From an uncultured Gilliamella sp. (GTDB taxonomy: Bacteria > Pseudomonadota > Gammaproteobacteria > Enterobacterales > Orbaceae): 64,000 nucleotides of DNA. Made by a program: the position numbers and the translations under genes. The stretch covers positions 1-64,000 of the forward strand of contig CAMLMY010000005.1 in assembly GCA_946481345.1 (NCBI GenBank), written 5' to 3'. Positions 1-14,606 of the stretch are shown one piece after another (the stretch's first letter is position 1; every line of letters starts with the position of its first letter). The notes under the pieces are model-generated. The model saw only the letters and a program-made list of their open reading frames with translations. It searched no databases and was not told the origin of the DNA.

Positions 1-133
1 AGAAAATAAAATTATGATCAAGTCAATTATAATTACGTATAATTTTCACATGAAAGAAATGAATGTTTAATTGAATATAAGTGTTTTAAAATTAATGATT
101 ATTTTTTACTTAATGTTAACTTGTTACAAATAA
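1..133 (-). repeat. Copy A of a duplicated upstream region (direct repeat of 789-920)
   Basis: agaaaataaaattatgatcaagtcaattataattacgtataattttcacatgaaa (1-55) matches 789-843 at 49/55 positions; weaker similarity continues to about 133 (tttttacttaa..ttaact). Confidence 0.75.
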
Positions 134-433
134 ATAATTTGTATTGTTTAAGCAAAAGAAGATTGTTATTTGTTATTTATAAATTTTTTGATCTATTGTA
201 TTAAAGCAGATCACAAATAACTTCAATATTTCCCTTTCAAATTTATTGAGATTAAATGGCATGATAATGATAAAAACTTTTACTTTTATCATCGTGGATG
301 ATTCATATTCAATAAAACTAAAATAATTTACTATTTAATTTTATAATTTATCTATTATCAATTTTTCAAAATAAAAATGCTAAATCTCAGCTTAAGGTAT
401 ATATTTCAATTTCCTATATGGTTTTTAACAATA

Positions 434-463
434 AAACGAGAAGCAAATCATCGCTTCCCGTTT
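434..463 (-). terminator. Rho-independent terminator of the microcin-like gene
   Basis: aaacgagaagc / gcttcccgttt stem (one mismatch) just past the stop codon; T-rich tract on the minus strand. Confidence 0.65.
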
Positions 464-473
464 AAGACATTAA

Positions 474-692
474 TTAAGGACGAAGTGTTGGGAAAGGTAA
501 GCCGATAATAGCTTCAACAACTTGACCGATACCTTGGCCTAATAATCGACCTGAATCTTGTCCAGCAGTGCTTACGTTATGATGAGCTGCATCAACAACA
601 GCACCAATACCTGCACCTAAAGCACCGCCTGCATCAGCGATCCAGCCAGCACCAGAAACTTGTTCTACTTCTACTAAATTTAATTCTTTCAT
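474..692 (-). CDS. Class II microcin/bacteriocin-like precursor peptide with double-glycine-type leader
   Basis: 72 aa, MKELNLVEVEQVSGAG leader (pattern M-[KR]-E-L-x-L-x-E-x-x-x-V-S-G-[GA]), Gly/Ala-rich core WIADAGGALGAGIGAVVDAAHH...; RBS-like aaaggaacacattATG. Confidence 0.7.
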   Translation of the reverse strand: MKELNLVEVEQVSGAGWIADAGGALGAGIGAVVDAAHHNVSTAGQDSGRLLGQGIGQVVEAIIGLPFPTLRP

Positions 693-788
693 AATGTGTT
701 CCTTTTTTCCACAATAGTTATTTTCAATATTAGAATCTAAAAAATACCATTAATACATGGTACCGTTTAAACTCATAAACATTTAAAC

Positions 789-920
789 AGAAAATAAAAT
801 TTGGATCAAGTCAATTATGATTACAGTTAATTTTCACATGAAAATAGATAACTCTTTGATTAATTATAAGCATTTCAAGGAGGATAATATTTTTTTACTT
901 AACCTTAACTTTTTTAAATA
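789..920 (-). repeat. Copy B of the duplicated upstream region, about 97 bp upstream of the microcin-like gene
   Basis: Direct repeat of 1-133; lies where promoter/regulatory DNA of the 474-692 gene is expected. Confidence 0.75.
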
Positions 921-1032
921 AAAAAAATATATTTTTTGACAAAAATAGAATTATTTTTTGTATAAATACAAAATTAAACGACAAAATATTTTTTTACTTT
1001 AGCATATACGACTAAATTTCTTAAAAAAATAA

Positions 1033-1060
1033 AATATTGCTGGCAATCACCAGCAATATT
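1033..1060 (-). terminator. Terminator of mukFEB operon
   Basis: aatattgctgg-caatca-ccagcaatatt 11-bp perfect stem followed on the minus strand by TTATTTTTTT. Confidence 0.8.
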
Positions 1061-1061
1061 A

Positions 1062-4000
1062 TTAAGCAAAACCTTTTAATCCAACAACATGAACATGCTC
1101 TTGATTATTAATAACTTTACGAACTAATTTGTATGTAGTCCCTTTTTCTGGGCTGATATTTTCAGGTGCTGCAATAATGAGTTGCATTTCTAATCGTTCA
1201 CATAGCTCAAAAAGTGTTGCAATTGATTTAGCATCTAGACGAGCGGCTTCATCTAAAAATAATAGTCGGCATGGTGAAATATCTTTATTACGCAGACGTT
1301 TAGATTCTTCTTCCCAGCTTTGAATTACCATTAAGAGAATCGACATACCAGTACCAATCGCTTCACCAGTTGATAATGCACCACTTTCGGCACGTAACCA
1401 ACCATCAGCACCACGATTAACTTCAACATCCATCTCTAGATAGTTTCGATAGTCAAGTAACTCCTCACCGATATTCTGCGCAGTGCGTTGTCCCATATCT
1501 ATATGTGGATTTAAGCGTTGATACAGTTTAGCTAAAGCTTCAGAGAAAGTGATTCTATTGTTGCTAAACAGATCTTGATGTTCACTTTTTTCATCAGCTA
1601 GAGCCGCCAATAATGAAGAATGGGCTTCACGAACATTAACGTTTAAACGTACACCATTAACCTGACCAAATGCTACTGCTTGTAAACCTTGATTTAACAT
1701 GCGAATACGATTTTGTTCACGTTGAATAGTTTTACGTATAATATTAGCCACACTTTTGGAACTTATCGCTAATTGCTGCTCACGCGAAGTAAGTTCTTCA
1801 GTTAAGCGAGATAATTCAATTTCCATTTGTTCAATAGCTTCAATTGGATCATCGGTTTTCACGATATCTTGGCGAATTCTTTCACGCAGATGTTTATAAA
1901 CTGCAATATAGAATTGGATTTTACGTTCAGGCCGTTTTGGATCTTCTGATAACCTTAATACATCACGCAGATGCTCATTATCATTTACAGCCAAACGTAG
2001 TGAACCCAATGCCTTATCCGACATAGAACGTAGCTCATCAGCACTTAGATAAGCAAGTTCCCGACGATGTAATCGACGCTCAACACTATTATCTCTGACT
2101 AATCGTAATACTAAACACCATCCTGCTTTAGCTTGTACCACTTGTTCGCGTAATTGCTTATATTCACGCAATGTTTGTGTCAAACGTTTTTGCATTTGTG
2201 TCATTTCGCTTTCACACACAATCAATTGCTTTTCAAGGTAGGTACATTGCTGACGATTATTATTAAGTTTTTGATGAATTTCATCACGTCGTATTCGGGC
2301 ACGCTCTTCGGTAATCGCATCGGCTTTTACACCAATTTGTTCTATCTCATTCTGTAGTTCATTCAGCATATCTCGCTTAGTTTCAAAAGCACTTTTTAAT
2401 GAAGCAAATGTTTGGTTATACTGATTATATTTATCTTGATATAGCTGCATTTGACTACGGGATTCAGTTCTTTGAGCTTCAACCACCTCCAATCGAGAAC
2501 GCAATTTTTCATTTAAATCAGCATTTTCACCTAACATACCAGCCGAGTCTTCATAACTAAAATGAGATCGACGTTGTATCACTTCAGTTAGCGCAAAAAC
2601 TTGTTGTCGAATCGTTTGTTGTTGTGCTCTTACAGTGTTGTATTGCTCGTGTAAAGCTTCATTTTGTTCAGGATCGCTCTGTAAAACAGCAACAATCGGT
2701 TCCAGCTCTGAAACAGTGTTACGGTTCCGACTGACATATTGTACTGCTTCTTGTGCTTCTGCTACCTGTTCACGCAAGTCATCAACTCGATCAGCAAGAT
2801 CGTCATCAGCCAATAAATGCATTTGTGCAACAAGTCGATTAACGGTAGTTAATTGTTCTTTTAAACTTAATACTTGTTGCTGATTTTGTTTATCAATACT
2901 TTCTTGAGATGATAATTGACGTTCAATTTCCGTACGCCTAGTTGCTAACTTCTGTGCTTCAGCTTCAGGATCGATATCAAAAGCTACCGCTAAATATTGA
3001 CCGATAAATTGCCCAACATTTTGCTCAATTCGTTGTAACTTTTGTAAGTCAAATGAGACAGTTGCATAACGTTCATGCAGTTGGTCTCGTTCAACTGATA
3101 ATTTTTCAAGATGAACCTCGCGTGCAGCCCGGCCAAATAATGGAACTTTAGGAAAGCTAGAAAAACGCCACTGACGCTCACCCGTTTTAACCAATACTGC
3201 TTTATCCATTTCTTCACAGTCAAATACGCTATCATCAAATGATGATGGATCACCCTCAATAAAATAGATATCTTCAGGATAATCTTCTTCACTTGCAGTA
3301 AGAGTTTCAAGTTGCGTTTTTACTAAGGATAAATCGGGCACCACAATAGCTTGTCTTGATGGACCATATACCGCTGAAAAGTAAGGGGCATCATCAATAG
3401 TGACATCTTCATAAATTTCAGATAGTAATACACCATTAAATCGTTCTGCCAATGCCGATAATCGTCCATCATCAACCCCACTTGGTTGATTAAGTTGTTC
3501 AATTTGTATATCCAGTTGATTACGTCTAGAATTGATTTGATCACGTTCAGTAACAAGTATGCGTTCCTGTTCAAGCAACTGCTGCATATGTTGCGTGACC
3601 GTTTGGCTATGAGTAAATGTTTGCCCCGTTTGTTCTTGCAAAGAAATTAAAGCATCTTGCGCTTTTAACCATGTAGGTGCTTTTTGTCGATATTCAGTAA
3701 TCTTGGCTTGAATTTGTTCCAGTTCTTGTCTAAATTCAATTCGTTTTTCACTTGATTCATGAGCCAGCTCCGCACTTTCTTCTAATTGTACTTCAAGCTC
3801 TTGTTTTAATTCATCCAGATCATCGTAATTAACTTGACGTCCAATACGTTTACAAAATTGGGTTAATAATGATTCTGCTTCTTTTTGCTCAAAAAAACGT
3901 TGTTCTAATTCATCTAGTTGTAATTGTAAATGTTCAGCTTGATCAGCTTGATAACATTGTGACGGCCATATCCTTAATGCTTCTTTGGCAGCAATAAATG

Positions 4001-5480
4001 CATCACTGCGAACCACATCACCCACTAATTTAACAACAAGTTGATAAGCTCTATCAAATTGATTGATCGCAGCATCAGAAACACTGAGTCTTTGCTCAAG
4101 TTCTAATACTTGTTCAGTTATCTCTTTTTGTTTTTCATCAAACTCTGCAAAATGATTTTCAATATTACTAAGGCCTAATTTAGGTAATTGGCATAAAGAC
4201 TGCGCATTTTTAAGAGCTTGCAGTGCTTGTTGATATTGAATAGCTCGGGTTTGTTGAACATCAAGCGCTTGCTGGTAATCAGCCAGTTGTGTTTTTATTT
4301 CATCAACTTCTTGTTCTGAATGTTCAAATTGGTCTCGATAAGCTTGATATTGTTCATTAGCTTCAAGTACAACTTCATTTTGTTCTTCAAGCTTTACATT
4401 TAAATCATTTAAATCTGCTTGATAGCGATCAATCTTTTCTTGTTGACGCAATGCCGTTTGTGCAAGATTTAGATGATCATTGGCTGCTTGTAAATCAGTT
4501 TCCAAATCGCTTTGTGCTTCTTGATATTCTTTCAACTCTTTCGCCATTTCAACTTGGCGGAATTGATTACTTAAAAGCAGATCTTGTGTTTTAAACATAT
4601 CTCGGCGTAAGCCTAGCACGGATTCAATGTGTACACGACGTTCATTAGCATGACGCATGTAGTCAGCAGCTACATAGTTAGTCGATTCGGTGATAAGATG
4701 TTTAAACAAATCTCGATCAGATTGCGTAACTCTAATAGCTTCTAATGTCATTCGATTTTCACGTAGTGCGGCCTCCATATCTTGGAAAGCTTTACGTACA
4801 CCGCTATTTTCGGGCAATAGATAATCACGTAGTGAGCGGGTAATAGCGCTTGAAATACCACCATAAAGAGAAGCTTCGATCAGGCGATAATATTTACTAC
4901 GATCGGACGATGTACGCAGACGCTTCGGTAATATACCAAAGTCAAACATCACCGAATGATAGTCAGTAATTGAGTTAAATTGTTTAAAAATTACGCCATC
5001 CATTCCTTCAATTTTTTCTTTTAACTCAGGTAATGAAAGGATTCGTGCTTGTTTATCGTTTAAACGTTCAGTGACTAATTCTGTTGGAGTAATATCAACA
5101 GATAAACCTTGTATCAAAAAAGGTTTAATATCGACTTTCTTATCTCGACCAGCTACTTGCTGTAAACGTACTCCACAAATTATACGTTGATTACGAGAAT
5201 TAATTACATCAAGCATAGAATAGCAGACACCAGGTTTTAATTTTCCGTGTAAACCTTTATCTCGTGAACCAGATGTTGCCCCTGCTTCAGTTGTGTTTCT
5301 GAAATGTAATAAAGTTAAATCAGGAATTAAAGCAGTAACAAAAGCTGCCATTGTGGTTGATTTACCCGCACCATTACCACCAGAAAGAGTTGTAACCAAT
5401 TTATCCAAATCAAAGGTTCGAGCAAAAAAACCATTCCAGTTTATCAGTGTCAATGAGTGAAACTTACCATGTCCAATCAT
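1062..5480 (-). CDS. mukB: Chromosome partition protein MukB
   Basis: 1472 aa; N-terminal [14 protein letters not shown] Walker A, long coiled coils, C-terminal [14 protein letters not shown] signature and [11 protein letters not shown] Walker B; follows mukF and mukE. Confidence 0.97.
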
Positions 5481-5482
5481 AA

Positions 5483-6268
5483 TTATTCTATCTCCTCATT
5501 AACATCTTGGTCTTCATTATTATCATCTAAGATAAGTGATGATTCTATCTTGATTGCTTCACCATCACGGATTAAACGCAATTGAGCTTCTTGCACATCA
5601 TCACTACTACGAACTTCTGCACCAAAACGAAAAATTGATTCATTAATGCGAAAACGGCTACTGTCATTACCAACAATGAAGAAAATCATACCAAGTCTAC
5701 GTAATCGATTTAAAGCAGTTTTGACTTTATCAAATAACTTTTGACGATCTAAATCAGATCCTGTAGATCGCTGATTAACTAATTTAAGCAATTTACTTTC
5801 ATCAGCTAATGATATCAGTTCGTCAAACAACTCTTGCAACGTAAAAATCCCTTCATGTGCTAATCGTTCTGGACTTAAATAAAGGTAACAAAGCACTTTG
5901 CCGACTAGCATTTCTAACTCAGATAATACCGAGCGAGGAATTAACGTTGTTGAGCGAGGTCGAAGATAAAAAAAACCTTCTGGCGCTCTTATTAATTCAA
6001 CATTATAACGTTGGTAAAATTGTTCAAGTTCTAGTTGAAAGTCCATTAAAAATGCATGATGATCAAGCTCATCAATGCCAATATGACGCCCAGAACGCAA
6101 AGTACTATCAAGCTCAGGAAAAATTGGGTTTGCAATTGCTTGCGCCAATTTAACTGGCATATATTTATCAATGGATGCTTGTGAACTTGCCGCTATGCGT
6201 CCCATAACTTCATCAAGATGATGTGCTGTTTGTTGTGTTTCAAAATCTTTAGTATCTGTTGATGACAT
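5483..6268 (-). CDS. mukE: Chromosome partition protein MukE
   Basis: Start chosen at MSSTDTKDF (ATG at 6268), which overlaps mukF by 20 nt; ORF track start is further upstream. Position between mukF and mukB. Confidence 0.93.
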
Positions 6269-8735: not shown

Positions 8736-10124
8736 TTATAACTCTGCATTAATAGGTCTAGGAATTAGAAAGCTAGAAAGTAAAGCTAAAATGGTAATAA
8801 TTAATCCCAATAACATACCGTTGAAATAACCAGTTAATGTATTTGCATTTACCATTTGTATAGCGGGTAACAATGCAAAACTTAATCCTGCACCTAGATT
8901 AAATGCACCTGCATTCATACCCGGTAAAAAACCTGGATTATTTGATGGCGATAAAACGATACCTAATCCATTTAAGATAATATTAGCCATTCCTGCATAA
9001 AAAATACCTAATGCTATAACGCAAATAGATAAAATTGTTAAGGAATGAATACCATAAAACATGATTACTAAAATACCAATAATACAACCCAATAAACCTA
9101 GTTTTAATACTTTATTATATCCCATCGTTGGAGCTAAACGACCTGAGAATGGACCAATAAACCAACCAATTAACGCATAGGGAGTAAGAAGAATAAGTGA
9201 AGCCCAATCAGGATCAAGTCCAAAACCTATTTCATGATTTTGGGCTATTGACATAACTAAACCATTTACTATCGCAAAAATACCTGTCATGGTTAATGTT
9301 GTGGTTAATAATAAAGCCCACGTTGCTCTTCTTTTTAAATGTTCAATTGTAACCAAAGGTTGTTTATTGCGTTTTTCGGTACGCCAAAATAACATAAAAC
9401 AAACAATAGCAAACAATGTGAGTCCAGTGACATAAAGCCAATTGGCATTGCCAATATTACCAGCCTCATTAAGTGCTAATAGCAAAGCTGCAATAGTAAG
9501 AACAATGAATAGAACACCTATCCAATCCATTTTAGTTCCAGCTGACGGTTTTGATTCTGGAGCAAAGCGATAGACAAAATAGGTAGAAATAGCAGCAACG
9601 ACAGCAATAACCCAAAATACTGAACGGAAACCAAAATATGTAGCAAGTAAGCCACCTGCAATTGCATCAACACCAGCAATGCCACCATTTACGGCTGTAA
9701 TAATTCCCATTAACATACCATATTGTTTGGCATCTTTAACTTCATAACTAAGCATTAATAAACAAAGTGGTACAACAGGACCTGATACACCTTGTATGAT
9801 TCGGGCTGCATACAATACTTCTATATTAGGTGCTAGTGCTGCAAGTATGGTACCTAATGTCATAATAAGCAACATAAAGGTTAATACTTTTTTACGACCT
9901 TTTATATCACTCAAACGAGGTAAGAATAGTGAAAATAAAGCAGCAGCAGTAAAAAAAGAAGTTTGCGATAAACCTACAGCGGCATCATTGGTTCCTAACT
10001 CTTTAGCTATTGTTACTAATACTGGACTTAACATGCTTGCATTAAGTTGAAATGCAACACAAGCTGCAAGTAACGCAACCATTAATGTTATTATATTTTT
10101 CTTTTCTTTACTTTGATCTAACAT
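8736..10124 (-). CDS. MFS transporter
   Basis: 462 aa, 12-14 predicted hydrophobic segments, MFS motif LPRLSDIKGRKKVL. Confidence 0.9.
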   Translation of the reverse strand: MLDQSKEKKNIITLMVALLAACVAFQLNASMLSPVLVTIAKELGTNDAAVGLSQTSFFTAAALFSLFLPRLSDIKGRKKVLTFMLLIMTLGTILAALAPNIEVLYAARIIQGVSGPVVPLCLLMLSYEVKDAKQYGMLMGIITAVNGGIAGVDAIAGGLLATYFGFRSVFWVIAVVAAISTYFVYRFAPESKPSAGTKMDWIGVLFIVLTIAALLLALNEAGNIGNANWLYVTGLTLFAIVCFMLFWRTEKRNKQPLVTIEHLKRRATWALLLTTTLTMTGIFAIVNGLVMSIAQNHEIGFGLDPDWASLILLTPYALIGWFIGPFSGRLAPTMGYNKVLKLGLLGCIIGILVIMFYGIHSLTILSICVIALGIFYAGMANIILNGLGIVLSPSNNPGFLPGMNAGAFNLGAGLSFALLPAIQMVNANTLTGYFNGMLLGLIITILALLSSFLIPRPINAEL

Positions 10125-13217: not shown

Positions 13218-14606
13218 ATGTTAAGTAACGGAATTATTCAAGCAGCCTATGTTATTGCTGCATTACTTTTTATATTCAGTTTACGAGGTCTTTCCAATCA
13301 AGAATCAGCTAAATCAGGAAACATCTACGGTATGATCGGTATGGCAATAGCTCTTATCGCAGCAATTGCCAGCATAAATGGCGGATTACACTGGATCATT
13401 ATTGCCATGATTATCGGTGCTGCTATTGGTTTGTATCTAGCGAAAAATGTTGAAATGACACAAATGCCTGAATTGGTTGCTTTGTTACATAGCTTTGTCG
13501 GTATGGCGGCCGTTCTTGTTGGTATAAACAGCTTCTTAGATCCGCACATGGTTGCAGCGAATGAAGTAACAATTCATTTAGTTGAAATTTTTGTAGGTGT
13601 ATTTATCGGTGCAGTTACTTTCTCTGGATCAATTGTAGCCTTTGGAAAGTTAAATGGTAAAATTAGTTCAAAACCATTATCTCTCCCAAATAAACACTAT
13701 CTAAATCTAGCGGCAATAGTTGTATCAGTTATCTTGATGTTTACATTTATCAATGCACAAACTGGTGCAGGCGCCCTAGTTTGTTTACTTATCATGACAA
13801 TTATTGCACTAGTATTCGGTTTCCACCTTGTTGCATCAATTGGTGGTGCGGATATGCCTGTTGTTATCTCAATGCTTAATTCCTATTCTGGTTGGGCGGC
13901 AGCAGCGGCAGGCTTTATGTTACAAAATGATCTTCTAATTGTAACTGGTGCGTTAGTGGGTTCTTCTGGTGCAATTCTCTCTTATATCATGTGTAAAGCA
14001 ATGAATCGTTCATTTATCAGTGTTATCGCTGGTGGATTTGGGAGCGATGGTAATGCAGCGAGTTCATCTGATGAAGAACAAGGTGAGTATCGTGAAATGC
14101 AACCTGCTGAAGTTGCACAAACATTAAAAGAAGCCCGTTCTGTTATCATCGTTCCTGGCTATGGTATGGCTGTAGCTCAAGCACAAGGTGCAGTAAGTAA
14201 TATTACTGAAAAATTGCGTGCAATGGGTATTGAAGTAAGATTTGGTATCCATCCTGTTGCTGGTCGTTTACCGGGTCATATGAATGTATTATTAGCAGAA
14301 GCAAAAGTACCTTATGACATCGTTCTTGAAATGGATGAAATCAATGACGACTTCCCTGATACGGATGTTGTGTGGGTTATTGGTGCAAATGATACTGTTA
14401 ATCCAGCAGCTGAAGAAGATCCTAATAGCCCTATAGCAGGTATGCCTGTTCTTGAAGTTTGGAAAGCAAAAACAGTGATTATTTCTAAACGCTCAATGAA
14501 TACCGGCTATGCTGGCGTGCAAAACCCACTATTCTTTAAAGAAAATAGCTATATGTTATTTGGCGATGCCAAAGATAGTGTTGAAAAAGTGTTACAAAAT
14601 TTATAA
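13218..14606 (+). CDS. pntB: NAD(P) transhydrogenase subunit beta
   Basis: 462 aa; membrane domain plus C-terminal NADP domain ([33 protein letters not shown]). Confidence 0.97.

Follow-up and report, generated by a model that had tools for sequence, protein, structure and literature searches.

A double-glycine-leader peptide gene in a putative class II microcin-like cassette of Gilliamella

What is the role of a small double-glycine-leader peptide whose gene stands at the edge of a contig, with neither export genes nor a recognizable immunity gene beside it? The question is posed by pep1, a GA-type precursor peptide gene (positions 474..692, minus strand) in a 64,000-nucleotide stretch of DNA from an uncultured Gilliamella sp., here called the window. 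In our judgment, pep1 probably comes first among the peptide genes of an accessory class II microcin-type type I secretion cassette; its product would be exported and would use a glycine-zipper core to permeabilize the inner membrane of competitors. Beyond the original prediction of a microcin-like peptide, the analysis brings out (i) a second peptide gene, (ii) an internally repeated glycine zipper, and (iii) an accessory insertion beside mukB. As a microcin candidate, the locus is compact and testable, and it belongs to a genetically tractable gut community, as genome-engineering methods exist for that of the bee (PMC11389375); the peptide architecture recalls glycine-zipper toxins such as Cdz. 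It also gives good reason to ask whether a dedicated immunity protein is indispensable to every microcin producer.

The pep1 gene and its precursor peptide

The pep1 reading frame starts with ATG, encodes a product of 72 aa (MKELNLVEVEQVSGAGWIADAGGALGAGIGAVVDAAHHNVSTAGQDSGRLLGQGIGQVVEAIIGLPFPTLRP), and is kept in five Gilliamella relatives. As originally predicted, it has its own ribosome-binding site and terminator: an AAGGAA sequence at 699..704 (minus strand), which aligns in paralogues and orthologues, and an intrinsic terminator with a 13-pair stem at 434..463 (minus strand), recovered by a terminator scan. The pep1 region holds two terminator-like sites versus 0.5 expected, and a hairpin like that of pep1 is also found 3′ of the second peptide gene, pep2, and of the peptide gene of a divergent relative (G018). 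Farther upstream, alignment delineates a conserved block, TGTGAAAATTA..GTAA..ATAATTGACTTGAT...ATTTTATTTTCTGTTTAAAT (781..842, minus strand), that recurs 5′ of nine peptide genes, with its downstream half retained even in G018. Judged from conservation alone, this block would be promoter-like (or operator-like); a sigma-70 consensus scan calls no promoter at 781..842. At the level of sequence, pep1 is a real gene under purifying selection, because its pN/pS between genomes is ~0.13-0.4, with synonymous differences exceeding non-synonymous ones. An Rfam search of window positions 1-6000 gives no match, no viral contigs are found, and a plasmid tblastn search with the Gilliamella and Commensalibacter peptides likewise gives no match.

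The precursor begins with a predicted 15-aa leader, MKELNLVEVEQVSGA (648..692, minus strand), which is nearly invariant among the Gilliamella homologues and is of the GG/GA type that characterizes class II microcins. The double-glycine leader of the original prediction is therefore real, but the cleavage site is better placed after GA (15/57 aa) than after GAG (16/56 aa). Leaders of class II microcins follow a -4/-7/-12 register (PMC11494933), and the division into leader (15 aa) and core (57 aa) is adopted because this register fits cleavage after GA, with V12, V9, and L4 at the respective positions. The Pfam MccV family (PF17508) matches pep1 only over residues 1-33, the leader region, with an E-value of 0.0085 and 17.1 bits, which is below the cut-off of 27. 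Scanned against Pfam and NCBIfam, the peptide gives sub-threshold matches only, with no bacteriocin family above the cut-off.

The predicted core peptide (477..647, minus strand) comprises 57 aa, with a mass of 5530 Da, a pI of 5.3, and a slightly acidic net charge of about -2. It consists of two repeats of the pattern D-x-G-x-x-L-G-x-G-I-G-x-V-V-x-A, DAGGALGAGIGAVVDA and DSGRLLGQGIGQVVEA, with an internal-repeat score of 48 that is matched by 0/1000 shuffles; the internal repeat of pep2 is weaker (20/1000 shuffles). GxxxGxxxG motifs are located at pep1 residues 22, 44, and 48, such that each half of the core has a zipper, and three such motifs are reached by 59/5000 shuffles. AlphaFold2 predicts helices at residues 17-36 and 43-62, with a pLDDT of ~94 over most of both, and the six-residue loop together with the repeat suggests that the modelled helices pack as a hairpin. 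Foldseek retrieves nothing significant from the PDB; its weak best matches include alpha-pore toxins with E-values of at least 2.7 and are not counted as evidence. The pep1 homologue of G032 (L036 8359-8580) ends in NCPSACRP, and its two cysteines, which the other members lack, might close a small disulfide loop at the C-terminus.

The export cassette and its chromosomal site

When 44 genomes of the family (the window's own and 43 others) are searched, the peptide turns up, besides the own genome, in five further Gilliamella (G036, G015, G003, G032, and G018) with 69-100% identity, and an identical peptide is present in the uncultured Gilliamella MAG CAMLPV010000004.1. The locus order in the relatives is mukB, pep1, pep2, MFP (430 aa), PCAT (714 aa), and a lepA-like gene, with a single peptide gene in the G018 cassette. 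The PCAT and HlyD-like adaptor that had been anticipated to the left of the window are found in all five peptide-bearing relatives, the PCAT lying within ~3 kb of the peptide in each. The second peptide gene, pep2, is a tandem paralogue of pep1 with 57-62% identity, and the duplication spans ~600 bp, including the upstream region and the terminator, at 76.7% identity.

The PCATs of the five relatives have a C39 domain with the catalytic Cys, His, and Asp, and the Gilliamella PCAT aligns over its full length with PCAT1 (4RY2, E 1.8e-83) and ComA. The MFP, encoded 5′ of the PCAT, matches the HlyD type I adaptor family, and the window's genome encodes TolC (TIGR01844 above the cut-off at G000:C51). 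Peptide export via the cassette is well supported by genomics, through the leader, the genes for the exporter and its adaptor, TolC, and the conservation of the locus.

In the window's own assembly (2.2 Mb, 97 contigs, 75% complete), there is no C39 domain, no MFP, and no cassette DNA besides the cut end. The window and contig G000:C5 start at the same base, and positions 1..157 (minus strand) correspond to the duplicated sequence upstream of pep2, the next gene, cut by the contig end, with 78.5% identity to the pep1 upstream region of locus L033. In G036, the counterpart of 1..157 runs on into pep2. Because G036 matches to the very edge of the contig (98.7% identity over 9.1 kb) and carries the entire cassette, an assembly gap is the simplest reading of the missing exporter genes, without being proven for the own strain. 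The original prediction of a peptide without local export genes thus describes the contig correctly, but as an edge effect, since the contig stops in pep2's duplicated upstream region. A C39 transporter is literally absent from the assembly, yet the leader is conserved in relatives, and, with the assembly 75% complete and cut exactly at the locus, the absence says little.

The upstream border of the cassette is chromosomal and not part of the system. It is formed by a 1472-aa ORF (1062..5480, minus strand) that we take to be mukB by sequence recognition and that is the same neighbor in all relatives. A terminator-like hairpin from the terminator scan (1033..1060, minus strand) lies 3′ of mukB, between it and the cassette. 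The gene beyond the cassette (L033 13907-15718; L036 of G032, 13731-14401) encodes a GTPase of the LepA type; in G032, this cassette-flanking copy is truncated and frame-broken. The cassette is an accessory insertion, because in cassette-free Gilliamella (G017, G023, G035, and G016, with G023 inspected directly) the end of mukB and the lepA-like gene are only ~90-105 bp apart. In the two other species examined (G027 and G006), other genes adjoin mukB. The downstream gene was rejected as the universal lepA, as the own genome has another LepA-type gene, 49% identical (G000:C7:12771-14558); for the same reason, absence of the lepA-like gene is not usable as proof of a gap.

Related cassettes extend to another class. 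Commensalibacter intestini and C. papalotli, which are alphaproteobacterial insect symbionts, each encode, immediately ahead of an MFP and a PCAT, a single peptide that shares the twofold motif, the C. intestini PCAT being 43% identical to that of Gilliamella. AlphaFold2 models the Commensalibacter peptide as helical with low confidence (pLDDT 61). A study of Commensalibacter reports a bacteriocin exporter gene (COG2274) in all of its genomes, with no peptide mentioned (PMC10149009).

Proposed function, self-protection, and alternative readings

In the proposed mechanism, the PCAT would cut the precursor after GA, and the 57-aa core would leave the cell through MFP-TolC. The core may then adopt a two-helix hairpin with one glycine zipper per helix, oligomerize via the zippers, and permeabilize the inner membrane of competing gut bacteria; killing, its target, and immunity are the parts of this scheme that we infer. 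The mature peptide might be diffusible or, alternatively, surface-held like Caulobacter Cdz, and pep1 and pep2 might be two related toxins or act together. The pair is not obligatory, because G018 and both Commensalibacter loci have one peptide. With no conventional neighboring immunity gene recognized, self-protection could be unlinked, afforded by a very short protein, or a matter of producer insensitivity. An accessory cassette, absent from its site in other Gilliamella species, is as expected of a weapon.

The class II microcins (MccV type; CvaA/CvaB/TolC) share with this locus the GA/GG leader register, a C39 PCAT and MFP in one cassette with TolC elsewhere, and a small Gly/Ala-rich core. 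The main differences here are (i) no recognizable linked immunity gene, (ii) a core unrelated above the cut-off to MccV or other curated families, with a weak leader-region match only, (iii) peptides that are paralogues in tandem and have an upstream block and a terminator apiece, and (iv) a host from the Orbaceae, with a homologue in an alphaproteobacterium. Few class II microcins are characterized, with ten verified (PMC9746304), and one review counts 15 microcins, all from Enterobacteriaceae (PMC10233263). The main texts of two class II microcin surveys (PMC9746304 and PMC11494933) do not mention Gilliamella or Orbaceae, and the literature found on bee-gut antagonism concerns type VI secretion or modified peptides, with no Gilliamella microcin cassette described. 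The locus is most likely an undescribed class II microcin-like family.

Immunity proteins of verified class II microcins are 51-216 aa long, usually have transmembrane helices, and are encoded near the microcin (PMC9746304). Immunity genes were originally expected to the left of the window or elsewhere, which the loci do not bear out: when all intergenic ORFs of at least 20 aa are compared among the five Gilliamella loci, none of immunity-like size is conserved across all five. Three loci share a conserved 42-aa ORF on the downstream side of the PCAT, with a pS of 0.078 and a pN of 0.020, data too few for a coding call. ORFs rejected as immunity candidates because their frames are not conserved are that of 49 aa in the pep1-pep2 interval of G036 and, in antisense orientation close to the MFP and PCAT, those of 57 and 65 aa. 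The Commensalibacter loci have no obvious immunity ORF; a repressor-like protein gene precedes the peptide, and the gene after the PCAT is oppositely oriented. Because a linked immunity protein was not found, the locus is filed as microcin-like and not as a proven class II microcin. Some microcins possibly function without a specific immunity protein (PMC9746304).

A broader reading, which we hold to be less likely than not, is that the glycine-zipper hairpin peptides form a family shared by gamma- and alphaproteobacterial insect-gut symbionts and exported by a complete microcin-type machinery with no dedicated immunity gene. The peptides would then either be immunity-free microcins, whose producers owe their protection to an insensitive target or to the exporter, or assemble on the surface in a new role.

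The best experimental precedent for type I-exported zipper peptides is Caulobacter Cdz, in which two small glycine-zipper proteins, exported by a type I system, kill in a contact-dependent manner and CdzI confers immunity (PMC5380434). CdzC and CdzD have GxxxGxxxG spans and consist to 75% of glycine and small hydrophobic residues, and most Cdz-like loci have one peptide, while 14% have two (PMC5380434). A Cdz-like system here, whose exported zipper peptides would stay as surface aggregates and kill touching neighbors with no diffusion, is unlikely. The Gilliamella cassettes resemble Cdz in having small glycine-zipper peptides in ones or twos, extended GxxxGxxxG motifs, and type I export genes. 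However, G, A, V, and I account for 46-63% of the residues in the cores of these peptides, fewer small hydrophobics than the 75% of CdzC/D when set against Cdz by description, and the cores have a twofold internal repeat. Cdz also has CdzI and divergent operons, whereas no CdzI-like neighbor is present in the Gilliamella loci.

The class IIb two-peptide bacteriocins of Gram-positive bacteria likewise have paired peptides, GxxxG motifs, and GG leaders. The locus differs from them in its Gram-negative MFP export, in that the peptides are mutual paralogues and one relative is single-peptide, and in that no shared immunity gene is found.

It is improbable that pep1 encodes a secreted signaling peptide, i.e., a density signal with a dedicated PCAT as in the GG pheromones of Gram-positive bacteria. 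A glycine-zipper core of 57 aa far exceeds typical pheromones in size, and no sensor kinase or receptor gene is seen in the Gilliamella cassette. Such a role would nevertheless suit the missing linked immunity gene, and PCATs with GG peptides are described as serving cell-to-cell communication too (PMC7018657).

Likewise improbable is a structural or host-directed secreted peptide that acts in a surface coat, adhesion, or biofilm without killing. The missing immunity gene, the possible self-assembly of glycine zippers, and the related peptides in insect-associated bacteria of two classes would agree with it, but the patchy accessory distribution (5/43 other family genomes) and the divergence of the paralogues (57-62% identity) fit antagonism better. 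A decayed or chance ORF, to which the absence of the exporter from the own assembly might point, is ruled out for practical purposes by purifying selection, a frame intact in five relatives, the upstream block, the ribosome-binding site, and the terminator.

Other peptide loci in the order and family

In a search of the order (395 genomes), weaker matches to the peptide fall mostly on the leader, with one longer match that includes a GKGIGSIVE motif (G360). Limnobaculum allomyrinae (L064 10001-10526) has two tandem GG-leader peptides that would need an exporter elsewhere, because no PCAT lies within ~10 kb of them in the 20-kb locus. Two other Gilliamella loci, L067 (G025) and L070 (G021), have a different PCAT/MFP cassette with radical-SAM-like and protease-like proteins, to which G025 adds a small GG-leader peptide; this cassette is apparently a separate modified-peptide system. 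Another Orbaceae genus (G041) has two PCAT/MFP loci, L069 and L066, which encode one GG-leader-type peptide apiece (of 86 and 78 aa, respectively), unlike pep1, and have no obvious small immunity gene alongside. In G002, also from an Orbaceae genus other than Gilliamella, the PCAT/MFP locus L068 includes a 132-aa GG-leader peptide (8759-9157) built from repeated Gly/Asn/Trp/Cys units (CCGCGSGGWGNGGNWGNGG...).
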